Part shown: in pieces, positions 23,976 through 37,729 of the stretch
Layout: each line of letters opens with the position of its first letter
Numbering within the stretch: position 1 is the first letter of the stretch
Source: Anaerosoma tenue
Lineage (GTDB): Bacteria > Actinomycetota > Coriobacteriia > Anaerosomatales > Anaerosomataceae
DNA: 64,000 nucleotides
Direction: 5' to 3'
Assembly (NCBI RefSeq): GCF_023161965.1
Contig: NZ_JALNTY010000002.1
Location: forward strand, 78,018 to 142,017
The notes under the pieces: generated by a model
What the model was told of the DNA's origin: nothing
Seen by the model: the letters and a program-made list of their open reading frames with translations, nothing else
Databases searched by the model: none
Position numbers and translations under genes: made by a program

Positions 23976-26063
23976 TCATCCGCCTGAGATGAACGCCCCT
24001 CCGTGCGGATCGAACACGCCGTTGTGGCAGCTCACGCACTCGGTGGCGTCGGTCGTAGTGGCTCCCGTGGGCTGATAGTCGTCCGTGAAGAGCGTGTCGT
24101 AGTAGTGGCAGACGCACCTGCCATGGTCTTCCTTGTACTCGAAGCCGAAGTTCGGCCTGATCGCAACGAGTTGCGGGCCGTGACACGACACGCACCGGAT
24201 GCTGTGCTCGCCCCGGGCCGTTGCCTCCCAGGCGGCGTGCGCGTCTACGTGGTAGGGATCGGGGGCGAGCGGGTCCATCGGCGCCACGTGGCAGCTCTCG
24301 CACGAGTCCGCACCGGCGGAATCACCGCATGCGTGGCACGAGCAGCCGGCGTGCTCTCCGGGCGCAACCGCCAAGAGGTCGCTCCCGTGACATGAGACGC
24401 AGCCGCTGCTCTTCGTCTCGATCGCAGGCGTGAGAGCGGCATGCCCGGCCGCGGGGTCGTGCCACTCTGCGAATCCCGCGCTTGAGTGACAGGCACCGAG
24501 ACACGTGACCGACGGCGCGACGGTCTCGTTATGGCAGGCGGCGCAACCGGGCGGCTCTTCACCGGACGCCCGGAAGTCGATCGCATGCATCCTCGTGACG
24601 TCCGTGCCGTGGCAGTTCGCCCCGAAGCAGGTGCCGCTGACCGTATGTGCGGCTACGCCCGCATGCTCTTGTTCGGCAGAAGCATGGCAGTCCTCACAGG
24701 TCTCAGCCGCCACATAGACGCCGGTGACGTGACATGAGACGCACGCGGTGTGCAGCTCCACCACGCCGGCAGTGTGGCAACCCGACTGCGTGCACGCCTC
24801 GCCGCCCTCGCTCGTGAGGGCCGGATGCGTGCTGGCATGCCCCACCGGAGCGCGCTGACCGTCATGGCAGCTCTCGCAGTCGCGAAGCGGCGCGGTGTCG
24901 TGGCAGTACACGCAGCCGCCGCTCACACCGTCGATATGGATCGACGCGAGGTTCGTGTCGTGGCATCCGGAGTCCGTGCAGAAGACCCTCGGGAGGTCGT
25001 GGCCGGTGAGAGGCTCGACGACCCGCTGGAGCGCCGAAGCGACCGAGGCGCGCACCGCAGGCGAGACGACCGCCGTGCCACCGAACACGTGGTAGGCGTC
25101 CACGCCCTCCTTGATCTCGCCGAGGAGTCTCCCGGTCTGTGCCGGCAGCTCGGCCGTACGGGTCATCAGAAGCACGGACCGGTTCTTGCCAAGGAGCGGA
25201 CCGGCGCACAGCGCGTCGGGGAACGACTCGCCCGTGGCGATGCCGAGGCGGTCCCACTGCATACCCATCGAGACGCCGTAGCGCGCGACCGCGATGGCCG
25301 TCTCGTAGCGGTTCGCGCCCGCGAGACGCGTACCGGCCCGAGCGCCGAGAGCGGTCTCAACGGAGGTGGGGACCACGCCGGTGCCCCCCAGGATGTCCAC
25401 GGCGTCCATCCCCGCCGAAAGCCGGAAGACGCCGGCGCCGTCGACGAGGACGAGCGGCATCCCCTGTGCGTACATGAGCGGAGCAGCGGCAAGAGCGTCG
25501 GCATAGCCCGTGCCCGTGGCTATGAACGCGCCCCCATCGTAGGCATCGCCCAGCATCTGGATGGTCTTGTCGGCGACCACCTTGGCGGTGGAGTAGCGAT
25601 CGGACCCGGCAAGGCGTTCGGCGCTGAGCCCCGCGGCTGTGAGCTGTGACTCACACCGCGCGGAGACCGCGCCGGTGCCCCCGAGGATGTAGACCTTCGT
25701 GGCGCCGAGACGCTCGATCTCGGCGAGCACCGGCGCCTCGATGCTGTCGCCGCCGGTGAGCAGGATCGGCCCCCTCACGGCTCCCGCGAGGGCGGAGCCG
25801 CCCAACGCGTCGGGGAAGTCCCTGCCGGTCGCCAGGACCACGCTCGTGGCCGTACCGAACCGCCGGGAGGCCTCGATCGCCGTTGTCACACGGTCGGGAC
25901 CCTGGATGGGGATAGCGACCGGGGTGACCACCTCGGCCATGGGGATGATTGACGCATCCGCCGCGGTCGCGGCACCCGGCATGGCGAACGCGAGCGCGAT
26001 CCCGGTTGCCAGCACCCCCGTTATCGCACGATGCCTGAACAGCGACCTTCGCATGCCTGCCAC
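23976..26063 (-). CDS. Cell-wall-binding (CWB2) multihaem c-type cytochrome, 695 aa
   Basis: A signal peptide (ends near AATA-ADAS) is followed by three CWB2 repeats, ~55-345, each with FPDAL/YADAL and ILGG/VFGG motifs that anchor proteins to wall polymers. The haem region starts at C362. Nine CXXCH sites are seen (CVYCH, CESCH, CVSCH, CEDCH, CAACH, CVSCH, CESCH, CVSCH, CVSCH). There are also three CX4CH (CTDSGCH, CTQSGCH, CFGANCH), one CX3CH (CLGACH) and two CXCH (CSCH, CVCH), so up to 15 haems. Many distal His are available. Exported, and matured by the ResB/CcsA pair encoded just upstream. A GTG start follows GGGGGAG. Paralogue of the 1163-residue cytochrome at the other end of the cluster. 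Confidence 0.92.
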   Translation of the reverse strand: MAGMRRSLFRHRAITGVLATGIALAFAMPGAATAADASIIPMAEVVTPVAIPIQGPDRVTTAIEASRRFGTATSVVLATGRDFPDALGGSALAGAVRGPILLTGGDSIEAPVLAEIERLGATKVYILGGTGAVSARCESQLTAAGLSAERLAGSDRYSTAKVVADKTIQMLGDAYDGGAFIATGTGYADALAAAPLMYAQGMPLVLVDGAGVFRLSAGMDAVDILGGTGVVPTSVETALGARAGTRLAGANRYETAIAVARYGVSMGMQWDRLGIATGESFPDALCAGPLLGKNRSVLLMTRTAELPAQTGRLLGEIKEGVDAYHVFGGTAVVSPAVRASVASALQRVVEPLTGHDLPRVFCTDSGCHDTNLASIHIDGVSGGCVYCHDTAPLRDCESCHDGQRAPVGHASTHPALTSEGGEACTQSGCHTAGVVELHTACVSCHVTGVYVAAETCEDCHASAEQEHAGVAAHTVSGTCFGANCHGTDVTRMHAIDFRASGEEPPGCAACHNETVAPSVTCLGACHSSAGFAEWHDPAAGHAALTPAIETKSSGCVSCHGSDLLAVAPGEHAGCSCHACGDSAGADSCESCHVAPMDPLAPDPYHVDAHAAWEATARGEHSIRCVSCHGPQLVAIRPNFGFEYKEDHGRCVCHYYDTLFTDDYQPTGATTTDATECVSCHNGVFDPHGGAFISGG

Positions 26064-26205: not shown

Positions 26206-27048
26206 TCAGAGGTCCTTGCCGAGCCCGCCGATCCCCGCGTGGGTGGTGTCGAAGACGGCGGGTATGCCGATGAGCGTGAAGAGCGAGAGCGGCATCGCGC
26301 AGATGGCCACCCACGCCAACCGCTCGCCGCCCCATTTGAGCGTGTAACGAAGGTGCAGGTAGACGGCGTAGATGATCCAGACGATCAGGCTCCAGGTCTC
26401 CACGGGATCCCAGCCCCAGTACCGGCCCCATGCCTCGTTAGCCCAGATGGCGCCGGTGACGATCATGATGCCCCAGAAGAAGAACCCCACAAGCACGTAG
26501 CTCACGGTGAGGTTCTCGAGCGCATCCTGGGCCGGCAACCGCTCGAAGCGCCGCGCCCACTCGCCCGTCTTGGAGCGTTCGCGGACCACGTACGCGATGG
26601 CCAGACCGAACGAGATCACGAACGCGCCGAACGCGAGATTGGCGAACACCACATGGATCGCCAGCCAGAAGCTCGTGAGCTTGCCGGTCATCGGCACTTC
26701 GGTCGTCTGTGCGAGCATCGCGCCGCCGAGCAGCAGCAGCGCAACCGGCATCACGCCGATGCCGGCGCTGGCAAGCCTCGGCTGCCGCCACGCCACGACC
26801 ACGAACGTGGCTACCACGAACAGCACCAGGGCCGCTGAGACCTCGTAGAAGCCGAGATAGGGGCCATGCCCTACCCTGACCCACCTGAGGCCGAGGGAGG
26901 CCGTCTGCGCCACCAGGCCGGCTGTGGCGACCACCACCGCGATGCGAATGAACCTCTCCTTGCTGAAGACCACACCGATCGCCGAGACGGCGGTCGCTCC
27001 GGCGTACAGGAGGAGGGTGACCCAGGTCATGATGATCTCGAAGGTCAC
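26206..27048 (-). CDS. ccsA: Cytochrome c biogenesis protein CcsA (ResC/CcsB type)
   Basis: 280 residues, about eight hydrophobic segments. The haem-handling WWD domain is visible as WANEAWGRYWGWDPVETWSLIVW, and conserved His lie in flanking helices (IHVVFANLAFGAFVISF; YLHLRYTLKW). With ResB it forms the system II haem exporter and ligase that attaches haem to apocytochromes outside the membrane. GTG start overlapping the resB stop (GTGA). Confidence 0.93.
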   Translation of the reverse strand: MTFEIIMTWVTLLLYAGATAVSAIGVVFSKERFIRIAVVVATAGLVAQTASLGLRWVRVGHGPYLGFYEVSAALVLFVVATFVVVAWRQPRLASAGIGVMPVALLLLGGAMLAQTTEVPMTGKLTSFWLAIHVVFANLAFGAFVISFGLAIAYVVRERSKTGEWARRFERLPAQDALENLTVSYVLVGFFFWGIMIVTGAIWANEAWGRYWGWDPVETWSLIVWIIYAVYLHLRYTLKWGGERLAWVAICAMPLSLFTLIGIPAVFDTTHAGIGGLGKDL

Positions 27049-28478
27049 GAACGGCTCCCTTCAACGGCGCCGAGCGCGCGGCGCAGCTCGTCTTCGATCT
27101 CGCTCCTGCTGGTGGAGTGGATGCGCCAGAGACGCATCCTCACCAGGAGCCTGGTGCCTTCGGGGCCCTCGAGGGTCCACGCCTTCAGCACCATCTGCCG
27201 GGCGAGCGTGGCCACCCCGAGACCGATCATCGAGATGGCGCCCGCGATGTAAAGCAGGGGGATGGACGGGTCGTCCACCATCTGCAAACGGGCGTAGTAG
27301 TCCACGCCCAGAAGCCGCAATTCGCCGCCCGTAGGCAGCGCGACACCCTCGTCGACGCTGATGACCTCGTCGACGACCGCGGCACCCCCGGTGTCCACGA
27401 TCACCACATGAGCGGCGGGCACCTCAGGAGTGCGCGCCACCAGGCCCTCCGGACGCTCGTCCAGGGGCACCGACACGATCACGTGGTAGGCCAGCACACC
27501 GTCGGGCCCGGCCAGGCCGAGCGGGGTGATCGGCGCCGTACCGTCGGGGTTCCCTTCGGCGAAGTCGACCAGCTGTGTGGTGCGCTGCACCTCGGCGCCC
27601 GCGTCGTCCACCATGGCGAGTGTCGCCGAAAGCCCGTAGTCCACAGGGTAGATCGTGAGCGCGCCTTGTTTGAGCGTGTTGTTCGGATAGACCAGCTGCG
27701 ACGCGAGCACGTTGCCCTCGCCATCGAGGACGGTGACCGTGGGGGTGGGCCCGCGATGAAGATCGCCGGTCACGTAGTCGATATCGAACGCATCGACCCT
27801 GATCCACCGGTCCACGAGGTCCCAGTTGTGCAGCGGGCCGCTCGTAAGCTGGCCGTACGACCCGGGCTGGTCGGGCTTGGTCTGACCCACCGCCACACCC
27901 ATCTGCCCGGAAGCGCGCGCCAGACTGCCGCCGGCGATCAACACGATCAGCGCCACGAGCGCCCAGTGGAAGACCGCCGTGCCCCAGACAGACCACCAGG
28001 GAGAGACTGCCGAGACGACACGCTCACCCTTACGCAAGGATATCCCGAGGTGCTCGAGCGTCGCCGCCGTCCGCTCGACGATGGCGGCGCTGTCGAGTGC
28101 CGGATCGCAGACGATCTCGAAGTCCGCGGACGTCTCATCCCCGGGCTCTACGTCGCTGCGTGCGTCACGGAGTGAACGGGCGCGGCGGCGCGCCACTCCG
28201 GTGCGCTGCCACGCGCAGGCGGCCGTACACAGTGCCAGGAACAGACCCGGTACGATGAAGAGAGGGCTGGTGAACGCTTCGTGCAGGCCGAGGGCACCGG
28301 CTACCGTCTCGAGAGCGGGGTTGGCAGCGGCCCAGAGCGCCACCCCCATGGGATCCAGGTCTCTCTGGGGAACGAACGAGCCGATGATCGACCACACGCC
28401 GACCCAGAGCAGCAGGACCATGGCGAGCACTGGCGAGGTGAGGAACCTCCAGACCCGTCGGCCGAACCCCATGATCAC
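27045..28478 (-). CDS. resB: Cytochrome c biogenesis protein ResB (Ccs1)
   Basis: 477 residues. Three N-terminal membrane helices (SPVLAMVLLLWVGVWSIIGSFVP; LFIVPGLFLALCTAACAW; VFHWALVALIVLIAGG), a large extracytoplasmic beta-rich domain, and a final helix (IPLLYIAGAISMIGLGVATLARQ). Starts at GTG or at the ATG two codons later. Partner of CcsA, with four-base overlaps on both sides, so lipoprotein-resB-ccsA are translated as a coupled string. Confidence 0.92.
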   Translation of the reverse strand: MIMGFGRRVWRFLTSPVLAMVLLLWVGVWSIIGSFVPQRDLDPMGVALWAAANPALETVAGALGLHEAFTSPLFIVPGLFLALCTAACAWQRTGVARRRARSLRDARSDVEPGDETSADFEIVCDPALDSAAIVERTAATLEHLGISLRKGERVVSAVSPWWSVWGTAVFHWALVALIVLIAGGSLARASGQMGVAVGQTKPDQPGSYGQLTSGPLHNWDLVDRWIRVDAFDIDYVTGDLHRGPTPTVTVLDGEGNVLASQLVYPNNTLKQGALTIYPVDYGLSATLAMVDDAGAEVQRTTQLVDFAEGNPDGTAPITPLGLAGPDGVLAYHVIVSVPLDERPEGLVARTPEVPAAHVVIVDTGGAAVVDEVISVDEGVALPTGGELRLLGVDYYARLQMVDDPSIPLLYIAGAISMIGLGVATLARQMVLKAWTLEGPEGTRLLVRMRLWRIHSTSRSEIEDELRRALGAVEGSRS

Positions 28479-29104
28479 TCGACCGGCCCCAGCGCAGTGG
28501 CTTCGACCGCGTCCACGACCCAGTCGTCACCCTGTTGGACGACAGTGTAGATCGCATCGTAGGAGGCCTCGTGCGGACCGCTGATGACCTCGCCGGCGTT
28601 CTTCACGGAGACGTAGTTGTAGCTCCAGGTCTCCTTGACGACCACCTCGACGCTCTCCTCCCCCTCACGGACGTCCTGCACCTCGAGGGACTCGAGCGTC
28701 TGGTCGATCAGGCGACCCTTCTGGATGTTGTACTGGATGTACGCGTCGACCCGGACCTCCTGGTAGCTCGTCATCGTGGGGAGCGCAACGCGTGGCTGCG
28801 CGATCCTGTACGCGTACGAACTCCAGTCGAGATACGAGCGCACCGCCGCCTCCGGCGTGGAAAGGTCGATCGTCTCCGGCTCGCTCGCAAGCGCTTCCTC
28901 GGTGACCTGCACCTCCACAGCCGGTCCACCCATCCCCTCGCCCGCCGCCTCGGCCTCTCCGCCGGCCTCATCGGACGTGCAGCCGGTTGATACACCTAGC
29001 CCAAGACCCAGCAGGACGACGAGACAGCAGACGATCACTGTGCGGACCCCATCGGCGTACGCATGCGTGCGAGCATCGGACCGATCCGAGCGAAGCGATT
29101 CCAT
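28475..29104 (-). CDS. Lipoprotein of the cytochrome cluster, unknown function
   Basis: 209 residues. A hydrophobic signal ends in the lipobox GVSTGC, predicting a membrane-anchored extracytoplasmic protein. The mature part (PEAAVRSYLDWSSYAYRIAQ ... VVVKETWSYNYVSVKNAGE ... YTVVQQGDDWVVDAVEA) has the helix-then-sheet pattern of NTF2/SnoaL-like domains; this is an inference from pattern only. Overlaps resB by four bases. Position suggests a role in cytochrome assembly or docking. The start at 29104 is preferred over 29113, which has no spacing to its AAGG. Confidence 0.72.
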   Translation of the reverse strand: MESLRSDRSDARTHAYADGVRTVIVCCLVVLLGLGLGVSTGCTSDEAGGEAEAAGEGMGGPAVEVQVTEEALASEPETIDLSTPEAAVRSYLDWSSYAYRIAQPRVALPTMTSYQEVRVDAYIQYNIQKGRLIDQTLESLEVQDVREGEESVEVVVKETWSYNYVSVKNAGEVISGPHEASYDAIYTVVQQGDDWVVDAVEATALGPVE

Positions 29105-29136
29105 CTCCACCATCCTTGGTTCGAACCTGCAGGTAC

Positions 29137-29748
29137 TCAGAAGAAGAGCCCGTAGAGGTCGGTCGTACCCTCTATGGCGATCAGCATCCACCGCTGACCG
29201 CTGCGAGCCATGCGTAACCTCAGAGCCTGGTCGGCGCCTTCTTCATCCGGCACGGTGACGGACACGAGCGCCTCATCGTCGCCCACATACTCCACCTCTC
29301 CGGGGCTGTCTTCAAGGATGGCGCCGAACAAGGTTCCGTCAGCGACTACGGTGCCATTCTCCACGCCCGCCTGCAGGGATTCGACGAACTGGTCGGCGAA
29401 GGTCTGCTCCATCGCGCTGGCGGGGAAGTCGCCGCCATGCATGCTCGACCCGCCCGCGGAGGCGTCTTCATCACGCGCTCGAGCCATCGTGTCCGCTGCG
29501 AATGCGAGGCCGACGCCGTTGGCGTCCATGTACGTCCGCACGCCCGTCCAGTCGCCGTCTTCAGCGGCCTCGGCAAGGAGCACCACCGCATCGTCGGGCA
29601 TCGCGCCCGGCTCTCCCGTGTCCGACTGACACCCCGCGACCGCCGAGAGCGCCACGAACGCGAGGCCGACCAGCGCCAGCCGCAGAAGCGCATCGCGGGT
29701 CCAGTTGCCGTTCGCGTGGCGTACCACAAGCCCACCATCCCCAGTCAT
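29137..29748 (-). CDS. Second lipoprotein of the cytochrome cluster, unknown function
   Basis: 203 residues. The signal ends in LSAVAGC. The mature part is acidic (PDDAVVLLAEAAEDGDWTGVRTYMDANG) and closes with a sheet-like end (DEALVSVTVPDEEGADQALRLRMARSGQRWMLIAIEGTTDLYGLFF). The overall pattern resembles the neighbouring lipoprotein, so both may share an NTF2-like fold, though direct sequence identity is low. ATG preceded by AAAGG. Only 32 bp separate it from the next lipoprotein. Confidence 0.72.
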   Translation of the reverse strand: MTGDGGLVVRHANGNWTRDALLRLALVGLAFVALSAVAGCQSDTGEPGAMPDDAVVLLAEAAEDGDWTGVRTYMDANGVGLAFAADTMARARDEDASAGGSSMHGGDFPASAMEQTFADQFVESLQAGVENGTVVADGTLFGAILEDSPGEVEYVGDDEALVSVTVPDEEGADQALRLRMARSGQRWMLIAIEGTTDLYGLFF

Positions 29749-29777
29749 AGCGAACCTTTCACCTCGTACAGCCAGCA

Positions 29778-29805
29778 CGGGGGCGGGCATCACTGCCCGC
29801 CCCCG
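29778..29805 (-). terminator. GC-rich intercistronic hairpin, 12-bp perfect stem
   Basis: CGGGGGCGGGCA and TGCCCGCCCCCG pair perfectly with a 4-base loop, 65 bp past the stop of the split-Soret gene. No U-tract follows on the minus strand, so it could be a weak terminator or an mRNA-stability element between high- and low-expressed genes. Confidence 0.6.
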
Positions 29806-29870: not shown

Positions 29871-30758
29871 CTACTGGTGGCACGACTCGTCGCACTTCAT
29901 CTTGCCGGCAACATGCGGAGCGCAGTCCAGGATAGCCTGGTCGTATCCGCCCGCACCACCGTGGCAGCCTGAGGTCAGGCATGCATCGACGCTGGGGTCG
30001 AGCACGGGGGTCGGAATGGTGCCAGCCATGAAGTCGTTGACAAGCTCGGCGAGCTTGTACACGCAGTCGTACACGAGCTTCGCACAACGGTCGCTACCCG
30101 CGGCACCGGCGTTGCCGGCGAACTCCGCGGTGACCCATGCGCCATCAGCGCCGCCCGCGGCCTCGAGCCAACGGCCGTGCGATGAGTGGCACAGGAGCGA
30201 CTTCGGCACCGACATCGGTGCGCTGTCCTTGGGCTGCTTGGAGGCGTCGGAGATCGTCCAGCCGCCGTCGGCCCAGTCCTCGTACGCGGCGTTGGTGGGG
30301 AACGCGGTGCGCTCGTACCACGCCATGTACTCGTCGATAACGTTGCCGTTGTTGGTGACGATCTTCAGCATCGCGGCGCCGCCGTTGGGAACACCACAGA
30401 GGTTACGCCACGCGTTGACGCCACCGCCGCCGTAGTTGAAGAGACCCTTGGGGATGGCTGCGTACGACGAGCTCGGGAAGTTCTCTGCGATCTGGCCAAG
30501 CACGGGCCAGTAGGTACCCTCGCATCAACCACCCTGTCCGCCGCCTGCGATGCCCTTGTAGATCTCATAGCCCTTGCGGGCGAGCGCCGCGGGATCAAGC
30601 GCGATCCAGTTGGCGCCCTGGATCGAGGTGTCCGGGAACGTCGTCACCGGAGTTGCAACGGCAGGCGCCGCACTGGTGACCGCAGGGAGCACCGAAGCAG
30701 CCGCCACCGCTGCAGTCCCTCCCAGGAACTGCCTGCGGGAAAGCTTGCTGTTTTCCAT
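29871..30758 (-). CDS. Split-Soret-type cytochrome c, probable selenoprotein (UGA at codon 78)
   Basis: Two open segments in the same frame, separated only by TGA at 30527-30525, form one 295-residue protein. An N-terminal Tat signal (SRRQFLGGTAAVAAASVLPAV) follows ATG 30758 with GGAAG upstream. Around the UGA the sequence reads IYKGIAGGGQGG-U78-C79-EGTYWPVLGQIAE, where split-Soret relatives have a Cys-Cys-like pair. Conserved NYGGGGVNAWRNLCGVPNGGAAM and LLCHSSHGRW segments follow. C-terminal haem sites are CLTSGCH (CX4CH, 260-266) and CDESCH (CX3CH, 289-294). A SECIS-like hairpin starts directly after UGA. Likely an exported two-haem redox protein. If UGA is a true stop, this would be a broken gene, but the strict frame and hairpin argue against that. 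Confidence 0.82.
30486..30524 (-). promoter_or_regulatory. Candidate bacterial SECIS element
   Basis: Directly after the in-frame UGA, TGCGA (30524-30520) pairs with TCGCA (30490-30486). An upper stem CTGGCC (30510-30505) pairs with GGCCAG (30497-30492) around the 7-base loop CGTGCTT. The apical loop begins 20 bases after UGA and has G at its second position, consistent with known bacterial SECIS geometry. It lies within the coding region, as bacterial SECIS do. Confidence 0.7.
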
Positions 30759-30859: not shown

Positions 30860-33800
30860 TTAGTCCGGTGCCACCATGTCTGCGTTGTAGTCATCCATGT
30901 AGTCGGACTTGTTGGTGATGATACGGACGTTGCTGCCGTCGCGCTCCTGGACCGCGTGATAGTGGTGGCCGCAACCCTCACAGGTGTAGCGGTCCCATAT
31001 CGCGGCGCCGTCCACGAAGTCGACCGGGCCGGAGGCGGGCCATGTCAGAGCGCCCATGCCGTTGGTGCCGGTCTCGGGATCGAGCAGCATCGCGGTACCC
31101 TCGGTTGCCGTGGTACCGAGCACGTACGGCGAACGGTACGGCGCACGGTCGCCCTCGATGAGGCCGGCGTGGATGCCGTTGACGGTGCCGTTCCAGCCGG
31201 TGTTCACCAGCAGACGCGGAGTATCCCACGCGTGCGGGACGGCCACGTGGCAGTTCACGCACTGGGCGGAACCGTCGGTGGTGTCCTGGTGGTGGCTGGA
31301 GTGCGCGGTGTTCGAAGAACCGATCGCATTGGTGTTGACCGTGCCGGTGTCTTCGCTCTGACGGTGAGCCACAGAACCGCTCGTGGAATCCTCAGAGGCG
31401 ACCGGGGCCCACGTGATCGGGTCGGTGTACATCGTCCAGTACGGTGTTCCCCGCACGGCCGTGATGGTGCCTTCCTCGCTCATCGTGGTCTCAACGCTGC
31501 CCGGGATCGTGTACTCGAACGGCGTAGAGCCGGTGGAGATCTCCGGCATGATCTGGCCGGTCACGGTGCCCTGGTTGTAGTTCTGCAGGTCGTGACACTT
31601 CGAGCAGATCGTCATGACGCTGCCGTCCTCGTACTCGACGTTATCGGGGGTCGTCGCCAGCACCGAGCGGATCCTGATACCTGACGGGTACTCCGCCGTG
31701 TTCTTGGTCAGCTCCGCCATGTAGAACGGGGCCGAGTAGTCGGGGTCGATGCCCCAGTAGTCGTCAGCGCCGTGGGGGCCTGCCGCCTCGAAACCGGTGT
31801 GGCAGTCTTCACAGGTGATGACATCCGTCGCCAGCAGACCCGTCATGGCATCTGCGGGGGCGTTGGGATCGCTCTCCTCCCAGAACACGTTGACCGTCGG
31901 GAACTGCCACACGTCGGTGACAGGGTTGCCGTCGGTACCCGTGAGCAGGGCGCTGAAGTCCTCCACAGCACCAATCGACCCGAAGGTCGTGGTGTTGTGA
32001 CCGGAGGCCGCGACCCAGCTCTCCGCGTGGTGCGGGGAGACCTCGGTGGCGAAGCCATGCGGCGCGAACGCGTCACTGTGGCAGTCGACACACTCGCCAG
32101 CCTCGGTGGTCTTCGCGTTGATGAGCTCGAAGCCCGAGTCGATCAGATCGTCGTAGGCGTGGCACACGCAACCCGCGTGCGCATCCTTGACGTGCATATC
32201 GATCTCGCCGACCGCAAGCAGGTCGGTGCCGTGGCAGTCGACGCATGCGTCACTGTAGTCGCCATCGATGATGGCTTCCACGGAGTCATGCGCGCCCACG
32301 TGGTACGGATGATCCACACCCGGAACCATCGGATCGGTGTGGCAGTCCTCGCACGCGTACTCGCCGCCCTGACCATAGCCATAAGCATGGCAGGAGCAGC
32401 CATCGTGCTCACCAGGAGCAACGGCCATGAGATCCTGGCCGTGGCAGGACACGCAGCCCGCGCTGTTCGCCGCGATGGTGTCCTCGATCACGTCATGCGC
32501 GCCCACGTGATACGGATGCGCAGCATTCGGATCGAACGGGTCGGCGTGGCAGGACTCGCAGGAGTCCGCGCCGGCCGTGTGGCCGTAGGCGTGGCAGCTG
32601 CAGCCCTTGTGCTCACCGGGAGCGACCATCGTGACGTCGGAGCCGTGGCAGGAAACGCAGCCGCCGCTGTTCGCCTCGATGTTCGTGGTGAGCATGTCGT
32701 GACCGACGCCGGTGTCGTGATAGGCGCCGAACTGGTTGAGGTCGTGGCACACGCCGAAGCACGTGGTGGACGGCTCAACGGTGTCGTTGTGGCACGCGGC
32801 ACAGCCGGTGACCACGCCGTCGCCACTGAAGTCGATCCCGTGCATGTCGGTGACCACGTTGGTGCCATGGCAGTACGAATCGAAGCAGGTACCCGCGTCG
32901 GGAACGACGTGGGCGGCGACAGCGCCGTGCTTCTCCTCGGTGGTGCCGTGGCAGTCCTCACAGGTGCTGATCACGGAGATGTCGGTCGTGTCGTTGTGGC
33001 ACGACGTGCAGTCCGCGTGCAGATCGACGACGCCACCGGGGTGGCAGCCGACCTGCGAGCAGCTCTCATCGCTGGTGCTGAGAACCTCAGGGTGCGAAGC
33101 GGCGTGCGCATCGGTGTGGCACGTCTCGCAGTCGCGCTGCGGAACATCAGCGGTGTGGCATGCGTAGCAGCCGCCGTTGTTGAGGTCGATGTGGATCGCT
33201 GCCAGGTTCGTGTCGTGGCACCCGGAACCGGTGCAGAACACGTCGGGCAGGTCATGACCACTCAACACGGGAGGCGGCGGGGTCGTGGCGGTCACGGCGG
33301 AGTCGATGTCCGCACGGACATCGGCCGCTATCGTGGCCAGGCCACCGAACAGGTAGTAGTAGGAGACATCGCCCCGGGCGCTCACGAGCAGCGCCTCGGT
33401 CTCGTCCGTGAGCTGGGTGGACTCGGTGAGAAGCACCACGGAGCCCTTGCTGCCCACGAGCGGGCCGGCGCACAGCGCGTCCGGGAAGTTCTCGCCGGTC
33501 ACGACACCCAGGTTGTTCCAGGACAGACCAAGGGAGACACCGTACTCGGCGACCTCTGCGGCAGTCTCATAGCGGTTGGCGCCCGCAAGACGTCCGTCGT
33601 ACTTGGCTCCAAGGCTGGTCTGGACGGAAGCGGGCACGACGCCCGTTCCACCAAGGATGGTGACATCGGTGACTCCGGCCGGAAGCGTGTAGTTGCCGGC
33701 GCCGTCCACGAGGACGAGCGGCATGCCTTCGGCGAACATGATCGAGGACGACGCGAGCGCGTCGGGGAAGTTCAGGCCGGTGGCCATGAACGCCTTGCCC

Positions 33801-34351
33801 TCGAAGCTGCCACCGAGAAGACCGATGGTCTTCGCGGCGACCTTGGCGGCGGTGTCATACCTGTTGCCGCCGGCGATGCGCTCGATGCTGACACCGGGAA
33901 GCGCATCGATCTGGGCTGCAGCCGCGTTAGAAACGGCAGCCGTACCGCCCAGGATGTACACCTTGGAGGCACCAAGGCGCTGGATCTCGGCCAGGACCTG
34001 CGACGGTACCGACGCCGCGGGGGTCAAGAGAATCGGGCCGTCGACAGCACCCGCGAGCGCGGCGCCGCCGAGAGCGTCCGGGAACGATTCACCGGTTGCG
34101 ATGACTACGTTCGCGGCGCTTCCGAACTTCTTTGAAGCCTCCACAGCCGTCAGGTAGCGGGTAGCTCCCTGAACGAGAATCGCAGTGGGATCGGTCGGTG
34201 CCGTGGCCATCACCAATGATGTGGTCGTGGATGGCAACTTTGGCACCTGGGCTGCGGAGGCTACACCCGGTGCAGCCAGCGCAAGCACCAATCCCGCTAC
34301 GAGCACGCCGACAATAGCGGCGCGTCGGAACGGACCATGCCTACTGTTCAT
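30860..34351 (-). CDS. Cell-wall-binding (CWB2) multihaem c-type cytochrome, 1163 aa
   Basis: Signal peptide (AAIVGVLVAGLVLALAAPGVASA), then three CWB2 repeats at ~60-150, 160-245 and 255-345 (FPDAL, ILGG, NRYDTA/NRYETA). A Pro linker leads to the haem region from C373. I count 14 CXXCH, three CX4CH (CTGSGCH, CSQVGCH, CFDSYCH), one CX3CH (CFGVCH) and three CXCH (CSCH twice, CVCH), up to 21 sites. A CEGCGHH near the C-terminus is not counted. The last ~350 residues are haem-poor with CEDCH, CSKCH and CVNCH widely spaced. The product should be exported and held in the wall, giving a chain of haems across it. Strong GGGAGG before ATG. First gene of the cluster. Confidence 0.93.
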   Translation of the reverse strand: MNSRHGPFRRAAIVGVLVAGLVLALAAPGVASAAQVPKLPSTTTSLVMATAPTDPTAILVQGATRYLTAVEASKKFGSAANVVIATGESFPDALGGAALAGAVDGPILLTPAASVPSQVLAEIQRLGASKVYILGGTAAVSNAAAAQIDALPGVSIERIAGGNRYDTAAKVAAKTIGLLGGSFEGKAFMATGLNFPDALASSSIMFAEGMPLVLVDGAGNYTLPAGVTDVTILGGTGVVPASVQTSLGAKYDGRLAGANRYETAAEVAEYGVSLGLSWNNLGVVTGENFPDALCAGPLVGSKGSVVLLTESTQLTDETEALLVSARGDVSYYYLFGGLATIAADVRADIDSAVTATTPPPPVLSGHDLPDVFCTGSGCHDTNLAAIHIDLNNGGCYACHTADVPQRDCETCHTDAHAASHPEVLSTSDESCSQVGCHPGGVVDLHADCTSCHNDTTDISVISTCEDCHGTTEEKHGAVAAHVVPDAGTCFDSYCHGTNVVTDMHGIDFSGDGVVTGCAACHNDTVEPSTTCFGVCHDLNQFGAYHDTGVGHDMLTTNIEANSGGCVSCHGSDVTMVAPGEHKGCSCHAYGHTAGADSCESCHADPFDPNAAHPYHVGAHDVIEDTIAANSAGCVSCHGQDLMAVAPGEHDGCSCHAYGYGQGGEYACEDCHTDPMVPGVDHPYHVGAHDSVEAIIDGDYSDACVDCHGTDLLAVGEIDMHVKDAHAGCVCHAYDDLIDSGFELINAKTTEAGECVDCHSDAFAPHGFATEVSPHHAESWVAASGHNTTTFGSIGAVEDFSALLTGTDGNPVTDVWQFPTVNVFWEESDPNAPADAMTGLLATDVITCEDCHTGFEAAGPHGADDYWGIDPDYSAPFYMAELTKNTAEYPSGIRIRSVLATTPDNVEYEDGSVMTICSKCHDLQNYNQGTVTGQIMPEISTGSTPFEYTIPGSVETTMSEEGTITAVRGTPYWTMYTDPITWAPVASEDSTSGSVAHRQSEDTGTVNTNAIGSSNTAHSSHHQDTTDGSAQCVNCHVAVPHAWDTPRLLVNTGWNGTVNGIHAGLIEGDRAPYRSPYVLGTTATEGTAMLLDPETGTNGMGALTWPASGPVDFVDGAAIWDRYTCEGCGHHYHAVQERDGSNVRIITNKSDYMDDYNADMVAPD
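32285..32662 (-). repeat. Tandem 57-58-residue haem-binding unit within the cytochrome
   Basis: Two adjacent copies (32492-32662 and 32285-32458) encode GCVSCHGxD-x-VAPGEHxGCSCHAYG, then CExCHxDP and HPYHVGAHD. Each unit carries three haem motifs: CXXCH, CXCH, CXXCH. A third, more diverged partial copy follows (CVDCHGTDLLAVGEIDMHVKDAHAGCVCHAYD). The 695-residue paralogue has one copy. This indicates growth of the cytochrome by internal duplication. Confidence 0.8.
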
Positions 34352-35720: not shown

Positions 35721-35897
35721 CTATGCCACCCGGGAATCGCGCGGGCCGGTGGGCTCAGGGGGCGTAGAGCACTGTGTGCGCGTCCTGCACGAGGAGCATG
35801 AGCCGCTGCAGCCGACGACCTTGAGCGTGTTGCACCTCGGACAGCGCAGTTCATCACCCGGAAGACCGCACGACGGGCATACGGGCAAGATGCTCAT
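35721..35897 (-). CDS. 58-residue Cys-rich zinc-ribbon-like protein in the feo operon
   Basis: Starts at an ATG that overlaps the feoB stop (ATGA). The sequence has CPSC, CPRC and CSGSCSSC clusters plus one more Cys: eight Cys in about 40 residues, followed by a Pro-rich tail. It probably binds zinc or iron. Small Cys-rich proteins often follow feoB (FeoC or FeoB-associated types), but this one is not clearly either. Tight coupling to feoB supports it being a real gene. Confidence 0.7.
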   Translation of the reverse strand: MSILPVCPSCGLPGDELRCPRCNTLKVVGCSGSCSSCRTRTQCSTPPEPTGPRDSRVA

Positions 35898-37729
35898 GCC
35901 ATCACCACTCCCAGCGCCTTGGACACGATGCCCCCGAAGAACAGTGCGAACGCCACGGAGCCTGCGAACAGTCCGGCGAAGTACGCCCAGCCCCGCTCCT
36001 TGAGGATGACCATCGCCGACGCGATGCACGGCACGAACAGCGTGATGGTGACCATGCCGACGAGCAGCTGCGGATCGGTGAGGTCCATGGTGAAGAACCC
36101 TGCCGCGCCGAAGTCGCGACGCACGAAGCCCATCACGAACGCGGTGGCAGCCTCTGCGGGCAGTCCGAGCCAACCGGTGGTCAGCGGTCGCGCCACCGCA
36201 ACGATGCGCTCGAGCGCGCCTGTCACCTGCAGCAGACCGATCACCAGCGAGCCCGCGGTGAAGAACAGCGTGACCTCCCGCATGAAGTGCCAGACCTTTA
36301 CCGCGCTCTTGCGGACCACGTTGTCGATGCGCGGGAGCCGGAGCGACGGCAGGTCGATCAGAAGGTCGGTGGACTGCCCCGGTACCATGCGGTTGAGCAC
36401 CGCCCCTACCGCGCCGAACACGAACACCAGCAGCGAGATGTAGAGCACGGCGTAAATGGCATCAGCGCGGGCCATCAGCCCCGCTATCACGGCGATCTGC
36501 GCGGAGCACGGAACGGCGATGGCCATCAGCGCCGTGGCGATGAAGCGCTCCCGTTTGCTGCCGAGGATGCGCGTGGTGAGCGTGCCCATGGTCACACACC
36601 CCAGGCCGAGGATCAGGGGGATCACGGCGCGCCCGTTGAGGCCGACCGCGTTCAGCGTGCGATCAGCGAGCGCTGCGATCCTCGGCAGATAGCCGGAGTC
36701 TTCAAGCACGGCGAGTAACATGTAGAAGCCGCCGACGAGCGGCAGGATCACACCCAGAAGATAGGTGGGGGTCATCGTGAGCACGCCGAACTCACCGGCG
36801 AGCAGCGTATGGAGCCAGGTACCAGGCGCCGAAACAGTTGCGACCGCACCCTCGATGAACGGCACCCAGTGGGCGAGCATGACATCCTCTTCGAGCAGCC
36901 CCACGAGACCGCCCGCGATCCACTGGCCCAGCACGACCCACATCGCGTACAGCAGGCCGAGAAGCATCGGGATTCCCGTGAGAGGGTGGAGCATCCAGCG
37001 GCTCAGCCGTGCGGCGAAGCCCGCGCCCTCCCGCGTCTCACGTACGACCTCGGCACAGATCACGTCCACGCGCCGCCGCCGCTCGCGGTAGATGCTGTCG
37101 CGCTGAGTGCCGGGCTCGAGGCCGCACCGGGCGCTCACCTCTTCATCGCCCTCCAGCACCAGGAGCGCTTCCGACCGGAGGCTGATACGACGCTGCAAGT
37201 CGGGCAGACCCTCCTGCAGGGCGGGATCACCGTGCCCTGCGCGTGCGGCAGGGAGAACGCTCTTCAACTCCTCGACGCCCGTGCCCTTCACGGCTGCCGT
37301 AGCGATCACCGGAACGCCGAGCAACTCCTCAAGGCGCGCCTGGTCGATCGCGACCCCCTGCCTGCGCGCCTCGTCGGACATGTTGAGCACGACGACCATC
37401 CGCTTGCCCATGTCCAGCAACTGCAGCGTAAGGAAGAGGTCTCTCTCCAGATGGACGGCATCGACCACGTTGACCACGATGTCGCCGGTGAGGATGATGT
37501 CGCGCGCCACCCGTTCCTCCTCGTTGAACGAGGAGACGCCGTAGACGCCCGGGGTGTCCACGATCTCGTACACGCCCATGCGGCCGCGCACGAGCTCGAC
37601 CGTGGTTCCCGGGAAATTCGACACGTCCACGTACGTTCCGGTGAGCGCGTTGAAGACCGCCGATTTGCCGACGTTGGGATTGCCCGCAAGCACCAGGCTG
37701 ACGGGCCGCGCGTCCGTGCTACCGCTCAT
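35894..37729 (-). CDS. feoB: Ferrous iron transport protein B
   Basis: 611 residues. N-terminal G domain with VLAGNPNVGKSAVFNAL (G1), NFPGTTVE (G2), DTPGVYG (G3) and VLNMSDE (G4). The membrane part has about nine helices, with two Gate regions (VGGFYMLLAVLEDSGYLPRIA and the C-terminal FGAAGFF segment). It moves Fe(II) into the cell. It overlaps feoA by 11 bases and is followed by a coupled Cys-rich small gene. Slightly shorter than E. coli FeoB. Confidence 0.95.
   Translation of the reverse strand: MSGSTDARPVSLVLAGNPNVGKSAVFNALTGTYVDVSNFPGTTVELVRGRMGVYEIVDTPGVYGVSSFNEEERVARDIILTGDIVVNVVDAVHLERDLFLTLQLLDMGKRMVVVLNMSDEARRQGVAIDQARLEELLGVPVIATAAVKGTGVEELKSVLPAARAGHGDPALQEGLPDLQRRISLRSEALLVLEGDEEVSARCGLEPGTQRDSIYRERRRRVDVICAEVVRETREGAGFAARLSRWMLHPLTGIPMLLGLLYAMWVVLGQWIAGGLVGLLEEDVMLAHWVPFIEGAVATVSAPGTWLHTLLAGEFGVLTMTPTYLLGVILPLVGGFYMLLAVLEDSGYLPRIAALADRTLNAVGLNGRAVIPLILGLGCVTMGTLTTRILGSKRERFIATALMAIAVPCSAQIAVIAGLMARADAIYAVLYISLLVFVFGAVGAVLNRMVPGQSTDLLIDLPSLRLPRIDNVVRKSAVKVWHFMREVTLFFTAGSLVIGLLQVTGALERIVAVARPLTTGWLGLPAEAATAFVMGFVRRDFGAAGFFTMDLTDPQLLVGMVTITLFVPCIASAMVILKERGWAYFAGLFAGSVAFALFFGGIVSKALGVVMA

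Follow-up and report, generated by a model that had tools for sequence, protein, structure and literature searches.

Does the in-frame TGA that divides a cytochrome gene of Anaerosoma tenue stop its translation, betray an error or a decayed gene, or encode selenocysteine (Sec)? The host is a bacterium from a mud volcano that belongs to the order Anaerosomatales, class Coriobacteriia, and the whole stretch of DNA analysed here (the window; 64,000 nucleotides) has a G+C content of 66.6%. The gene lies on the minus strand at 29871-30758 and runs for 295 codons from ATG to TAG; when translated from 30758 to 29871 with TGA as U, its sole internal stop is the TGA at codon 78 (30527-30525), around which the product reads ...GGQGG, U78, then CEGTYWP. 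The original prediction, two open segments in a single frame separated by one TGA at codon 78, was correct in frame and coordinates and had left the strand unstated. Sequence comparison leads to an overall reading, to which we assign a probability of about 0.9, in which the product would be a dihaem cytochrome of the split-Soret / C_GCAxxG_C_C superfamily, exported by the Tat pathway, with UGA 78 read as Sec and this Sec most likely placed in an iron-centre site.

The N-terminal region (residues 1-35; 30654-30758, minus strand) carries the motif SRRQFLG, with the twin arginines at residues 8-9, and is matched by TIGR01409 and, at 26.9 bits and above the cut-off, by PF10518, in agreement with the Tat signal that had been proposed. 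The protein as a whole is a full-length homolog of 1H21, the split-Soret cytochrome c of Desulfovibrio desulfuricans ATCC 27774 (E 4.7e-11 alone and 2.2e-47 with a family profile), and the two share four cysteine positions and two C-terminal haem sites. Both the split-Soret identity and the paired haem sites had been anticipated, and the alignment to 1H21 confirms them, the sites being of CX4CH and CX3CH form: opposite CLTSGCH (29961-29981, minus strand), 1H21 has CGECH and homologs have CX2-5CH, and opposite CDESCH (29877-29894, minus strand), they have CTPCH and CX2-3CH, respectively. Neither is a plain CXXCH, whereas CXXCH occurs at the equivalent places in homologs. The Desulfovibrio protein differs from that of the window in its haem spacings and in gene context, which here is that of a cell-wall cytochrome, and the window protein has Sec for the first of the four cysteines. 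NF047622 matches all 16 members of the homolog set, but the window protein scores 66.7 bits against an equivalog cut-off of 400, and because of this shortfall the status of Desulfovibrio equivalog is not claimed; on sequence grounds, it is classed as a divergent member of the split-Soret superfamily. An AlphaFold model built from a three-sequence alignment reached a pLDDT of 33 and was set aside.

Only four cysteine columns are invariant across the 16 homologs when Sec is counted as Cys, and these correspond to the C_GCAxxG_C_C signature: U78 (30525-30527), C121 in a CGxxxG context (30396-30398), C190 in LCH (30189-30191), and C225 in DRC (30084-30086), all on the minus strand. PF09719 matches 12 of the 16 homologs at E 0.01 or better and scores the window protein at 20.3 bits against a gathering cut-off of 27; TIGR01909, whose NCBI name already includes '(seleno)protein', matches five of the 16. 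It had been suggested that Sec78 forms a Sec-Cys pair with its neighbor where relatives would have Cys-Cys. This was not upheld: the residue after U78 in the seven Sec proteins is C, C, S, C, G, C, and C, so that two species have Ser or Gly at position 79, and in most Cys homologs a lone Cys precedes A, S, M, or G. Judged from the alignment, the key residue is the first of four spaced cysteine positions and not part of a vicinal pair.

Homologs were sought in the phylum, class, and order and in genome contigs. A TGA at exactly codon 78 with the frame open beyond it was found in seven species of one family (the window gene, L037 (=L027), L038 (=L028), L039, L040, L041, and L043), while the same column holds TGC or TGT in nine other genomic homologs and Cys in 1H21, giving 7 TGA against 10 Cys; the comparison of codons and residues at position 78 that had been recommended therefore returned TGA or Cys in every case. 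Identity to the window protein within the Sec group falls from 72% to 38%, and the TGA has therefore been kept over a long divergence. On the tree, the Sec label requires two changes; one Cys-to-Sec gain followed by a return to Cys in the Cys-type gene L042 is an example of a history that may, at weak support, account for them. L065 (in G426) and L066 (in G455), which have Sec and Cys, respectively, are syntenic orthologs with the same neighbors. Ahead of the split-Soret gene, both genomes have a histidine kinase and a LytTR response regulator, a hint that its expression may be under signal control. The two types occur together in G409, as a Cys-type gene (L053; G409:C62:45199-45948) and a Sec-type gene (L041; G409:C30:9052-9957). 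No split-Soret gene was found in genome G164 in the homolog searches.

The A. tenue genome encodes the machinery that Sec insertion would need, with selD, selA, selB, and a tRNA-Sec (anticodon TCA) together in a compact selD-selA-selB-selC cluster at G000:C4:155460-160440, so that the prediction does not fall for want of any of the four genes. The SelD frame itself contains an in-frame TGA in three of three genomes tested. In A. tenue, SelD (L029; G000:C4:155460-156377) and a formate dehydrogenase (L071; G000:C1:892243-893283) have one in-frame TGA each, that of the formate dehydrogenase at the canonical U-H site, and both are probable selenoproteins as judged from their sequences. Neither selA, nor SelB above the cut-off, nor a true tRNA-Sec was found in G424 or G426, two metagenome-assembled Sec carriers, probably because of an assembly gap. 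In G426, the gene that trails selC elsewhere is found 1.2 kb from the start of a contig and is oriented as it should be were the sel cluster to lie beyond the edge of that contig; G424 lacks this gene. Comparing the presence of the Sec form with that of the sel genes is uninformative because Cys-only genomes carry selA too.

A candidate bacterial SECIS element occupies 30486-30524 (minus strand), immediately past the UGA. It consists of a lower stem, UGCGA/UCGCA, adjoining the UGA and an apical hairpin, CUGGCC[CGUGCUU]GGCCAG (30510-30492). All seven Sec genes have a 5-6 bp hairpin beyond the UGA, most commonly as CUGGCC[CGUGAUU]GGCCAG and with its loop about 20 nt past the UGA; the lower stem is weaker and holds in most of the seven. 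Cys-type genes are without the SECIS-type loop. L042 (G455:C92:31036-31938), placed with weak support beside the Sec gene L043, still has a weaker hairpin at the corresponding position. Synonymous codon conservation in the 15 codons past the TGA is 0.77 compared with 0.58 elsewhere for the seven genes, and 0.81 compared with 0.57 for six; the windows of highest synonymous conservation in the gene surround the TGA, some beginning up to 20 columns upstream. Folding-energy z-scores for the hairpin region are unremarkable, and an Rfam scan of the 64-kb window returned tRNAs only. The stem shows no covariation among the seven genes, and the hairpin is therefore a good SECIS candidate and no more.

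Seen in one genome alone, an internal stop would be taken for a sequencing error or a pseudogene. In this instance, the identical TGA recurs in the separate assemblies of seven species, none of which shows frame decay beyond it, and dN/dS in five pairs is 0.13-0.57 past the TGA and 0.13-0.84 ahead of it, so the sequence downstream is under purifying selection; error or pseudogene was rejected as already refuted by the shared TGA, and its residual probability is negligible. Recoding that involves no selenium, whether through TGA read as Trp, general readthrough, or a programmed short product of 77 residues, might draw on the absence of covariation in the hairpin stem across the seven Sec genes, a test that is uninformative here because the stem hardly varies. 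Against it stand the sel machinery in the genome and the aligned residue, which is always Cys and never Trp. Six of eight neighboring genes checked end in TGA, which is therefore normally a stop here, and on these two observations, the Cys column and the ordinary use of TGA as a stop, the reading as Trp was rejected. A product of 77 residues would be without both haem sites and would lack three of the four invariant cysteines. Selenium-free recoding as a whole is thus very improbable, and for practical purposes sequencing error, frame decay, and TGA as Trp are excluded. The window protein is, on this comparison, very probably a selenoprotein, in which codon 78 would be decoded by SelB and tRNA-Sec under the direction of the hairpin just past the UGA.

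The gene neighborhood bears on what the cytochrome may do. Six of the seven Sec species, the window counted, share one gene order: a CWB2 cell-wall-binding multihaem cytochrome (in the window 30860-34351; PF04122 and PF14522), the Sec gene, two conserved exported proteins with no Pfam match (29137-29793 and 28475-29191), the cytochrome c biogenesis system II protein ResB (27045-28478; PF05140), and a CcsA-type cytochrome c assembly protein (26206-27048; PF01578), all on the minus strand. This shared order suggests that the products act together in moving electrons across the cell wall, as far as gene context can indicate. The two Pfam-less genes overlap each other and stand between the cytochrome and ResB in these six genomes. 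The CWB2 proteins at 23976-26063 and 30860-34351 (minus strand) contain many haem-type motifs, CX4CH spacings among them, and a FeoB-type ferrous iron transporter gene (35894-37729, minus strand) lies upstream of the cytochrome cluster. The cultured type strain, A. tenue M08DHB-T, has a genome of 2,107,022 bp in 6 contigs with 66.58% G+C, and it grows with thiosulfate or sulfur and not with ferrihydrite; Parvivirga hydrogeniphila is an obligate iron reducer (PMC9686372). Given these growth properties of A. tenue, sulfur-linked and mineral-linked roles for the cluster are equally open. A cluster of A. tenue with weak MtrA and OmcH homologs and cytochrome c biogenesis proteins, MCK8114945-47, has been described (PMC9686372) and may be the locus studied here.

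Within the protein, the Sec would be the first of four positions (78, 121, 190, and 225) making up a second redox site, distinct from the C-terminal haems. In a study of the Desulfovibrio split-Soret cytochrome, newly found cysteines were reportedly proposed to bind an iron-sulfur centre, possibly [2Fe-2S]. If the four positions hold this non-haem iron(-sulfur) centre in A. tenue as well, the selenolate of Sec78 is most likely a ligand or reactive group there. ResB and CcsA would attach the haems to the split-Soret protein, and through these haems electrons would move, in one direction or the other, between it and the multihaem cell-wall cytochrome encoded next door. The most specific form of this proposal, in which Sec directly ligates an Fe-S centre that shares one small protein with two stacked haems and is wired to a Gram-positive cell-wall cytochrome chain, is tentative and falls somewhat short of even odds. 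A rival account, to which we give roughly one chance in three, accepts Sec insertion and leaves the iron aside: Sec78 would be a free catalytic selenol, acting for example on thiosulfate, polysulfide, or a disulfide and exchanging electrons with the haems. The use of thiosulfate or sulfur by A. tenue (PMC9686372) and the service of Sec as the reactive group of many selenoproteins (PMC13188914) would fit this account. It sits less well with the place of the Sec among four invariant positions; for this family, a title cited in PMC5701242 reports a novel iron centre.

Some multihaem selenoproteins and the C-GCAxxG-C-C selenoproteins have already been catalogued in two reviews (PMC9312934; PMC13188914). 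Forms 1 and 2 of the latter (PF09719 and TIGR01909; PMC13188914) share the four-Cys signature with the window protein and belong to a family known to include selenoproteins, and their Sec may occupy the corresponding Cys position; by their Pfam and NCBIfam models, however, they are Cys-signature proteins without a haem domain, whereas the window protein is a Tat-exported cytochrome. ExtKL (NF040886) and the octahaem tetrathionate reductase family (TIGR04315) resemble it as c-type cytochromes catalogued as selenoproteins (PMC13188914), but going by the listed models alone they are different families. The split-Soret cytochrome is absent from a 2026 table of 119 prokaryotic selenoprotein families (PMC13188914), a full-text literature search found nothing on a Sec-containing form, and no description of selenoproteins in the order Anaerosomatales was found in the searchable literature.

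The protein of the window would accordingly be the selenium form of a known cytochrome family, an identification well supported by comparison and one from which we infer the chemistry. It would add a cytochrome family not found among the 119 catalogued families of prokaryotic selenoproteins, and would mark one of four conserved cysteines as chemically special in a widespread redox protein. Should the iron-ligand proposal hold, the site would be a natural selenolate-ligated Fe-S site linked to a cell-wall cytochrome chain. Because the host is available as a cultured type strain and related genomes carry syntenic orthologs of the gene in Cys and Sec form, what selenium contributes at this site is directly testable.
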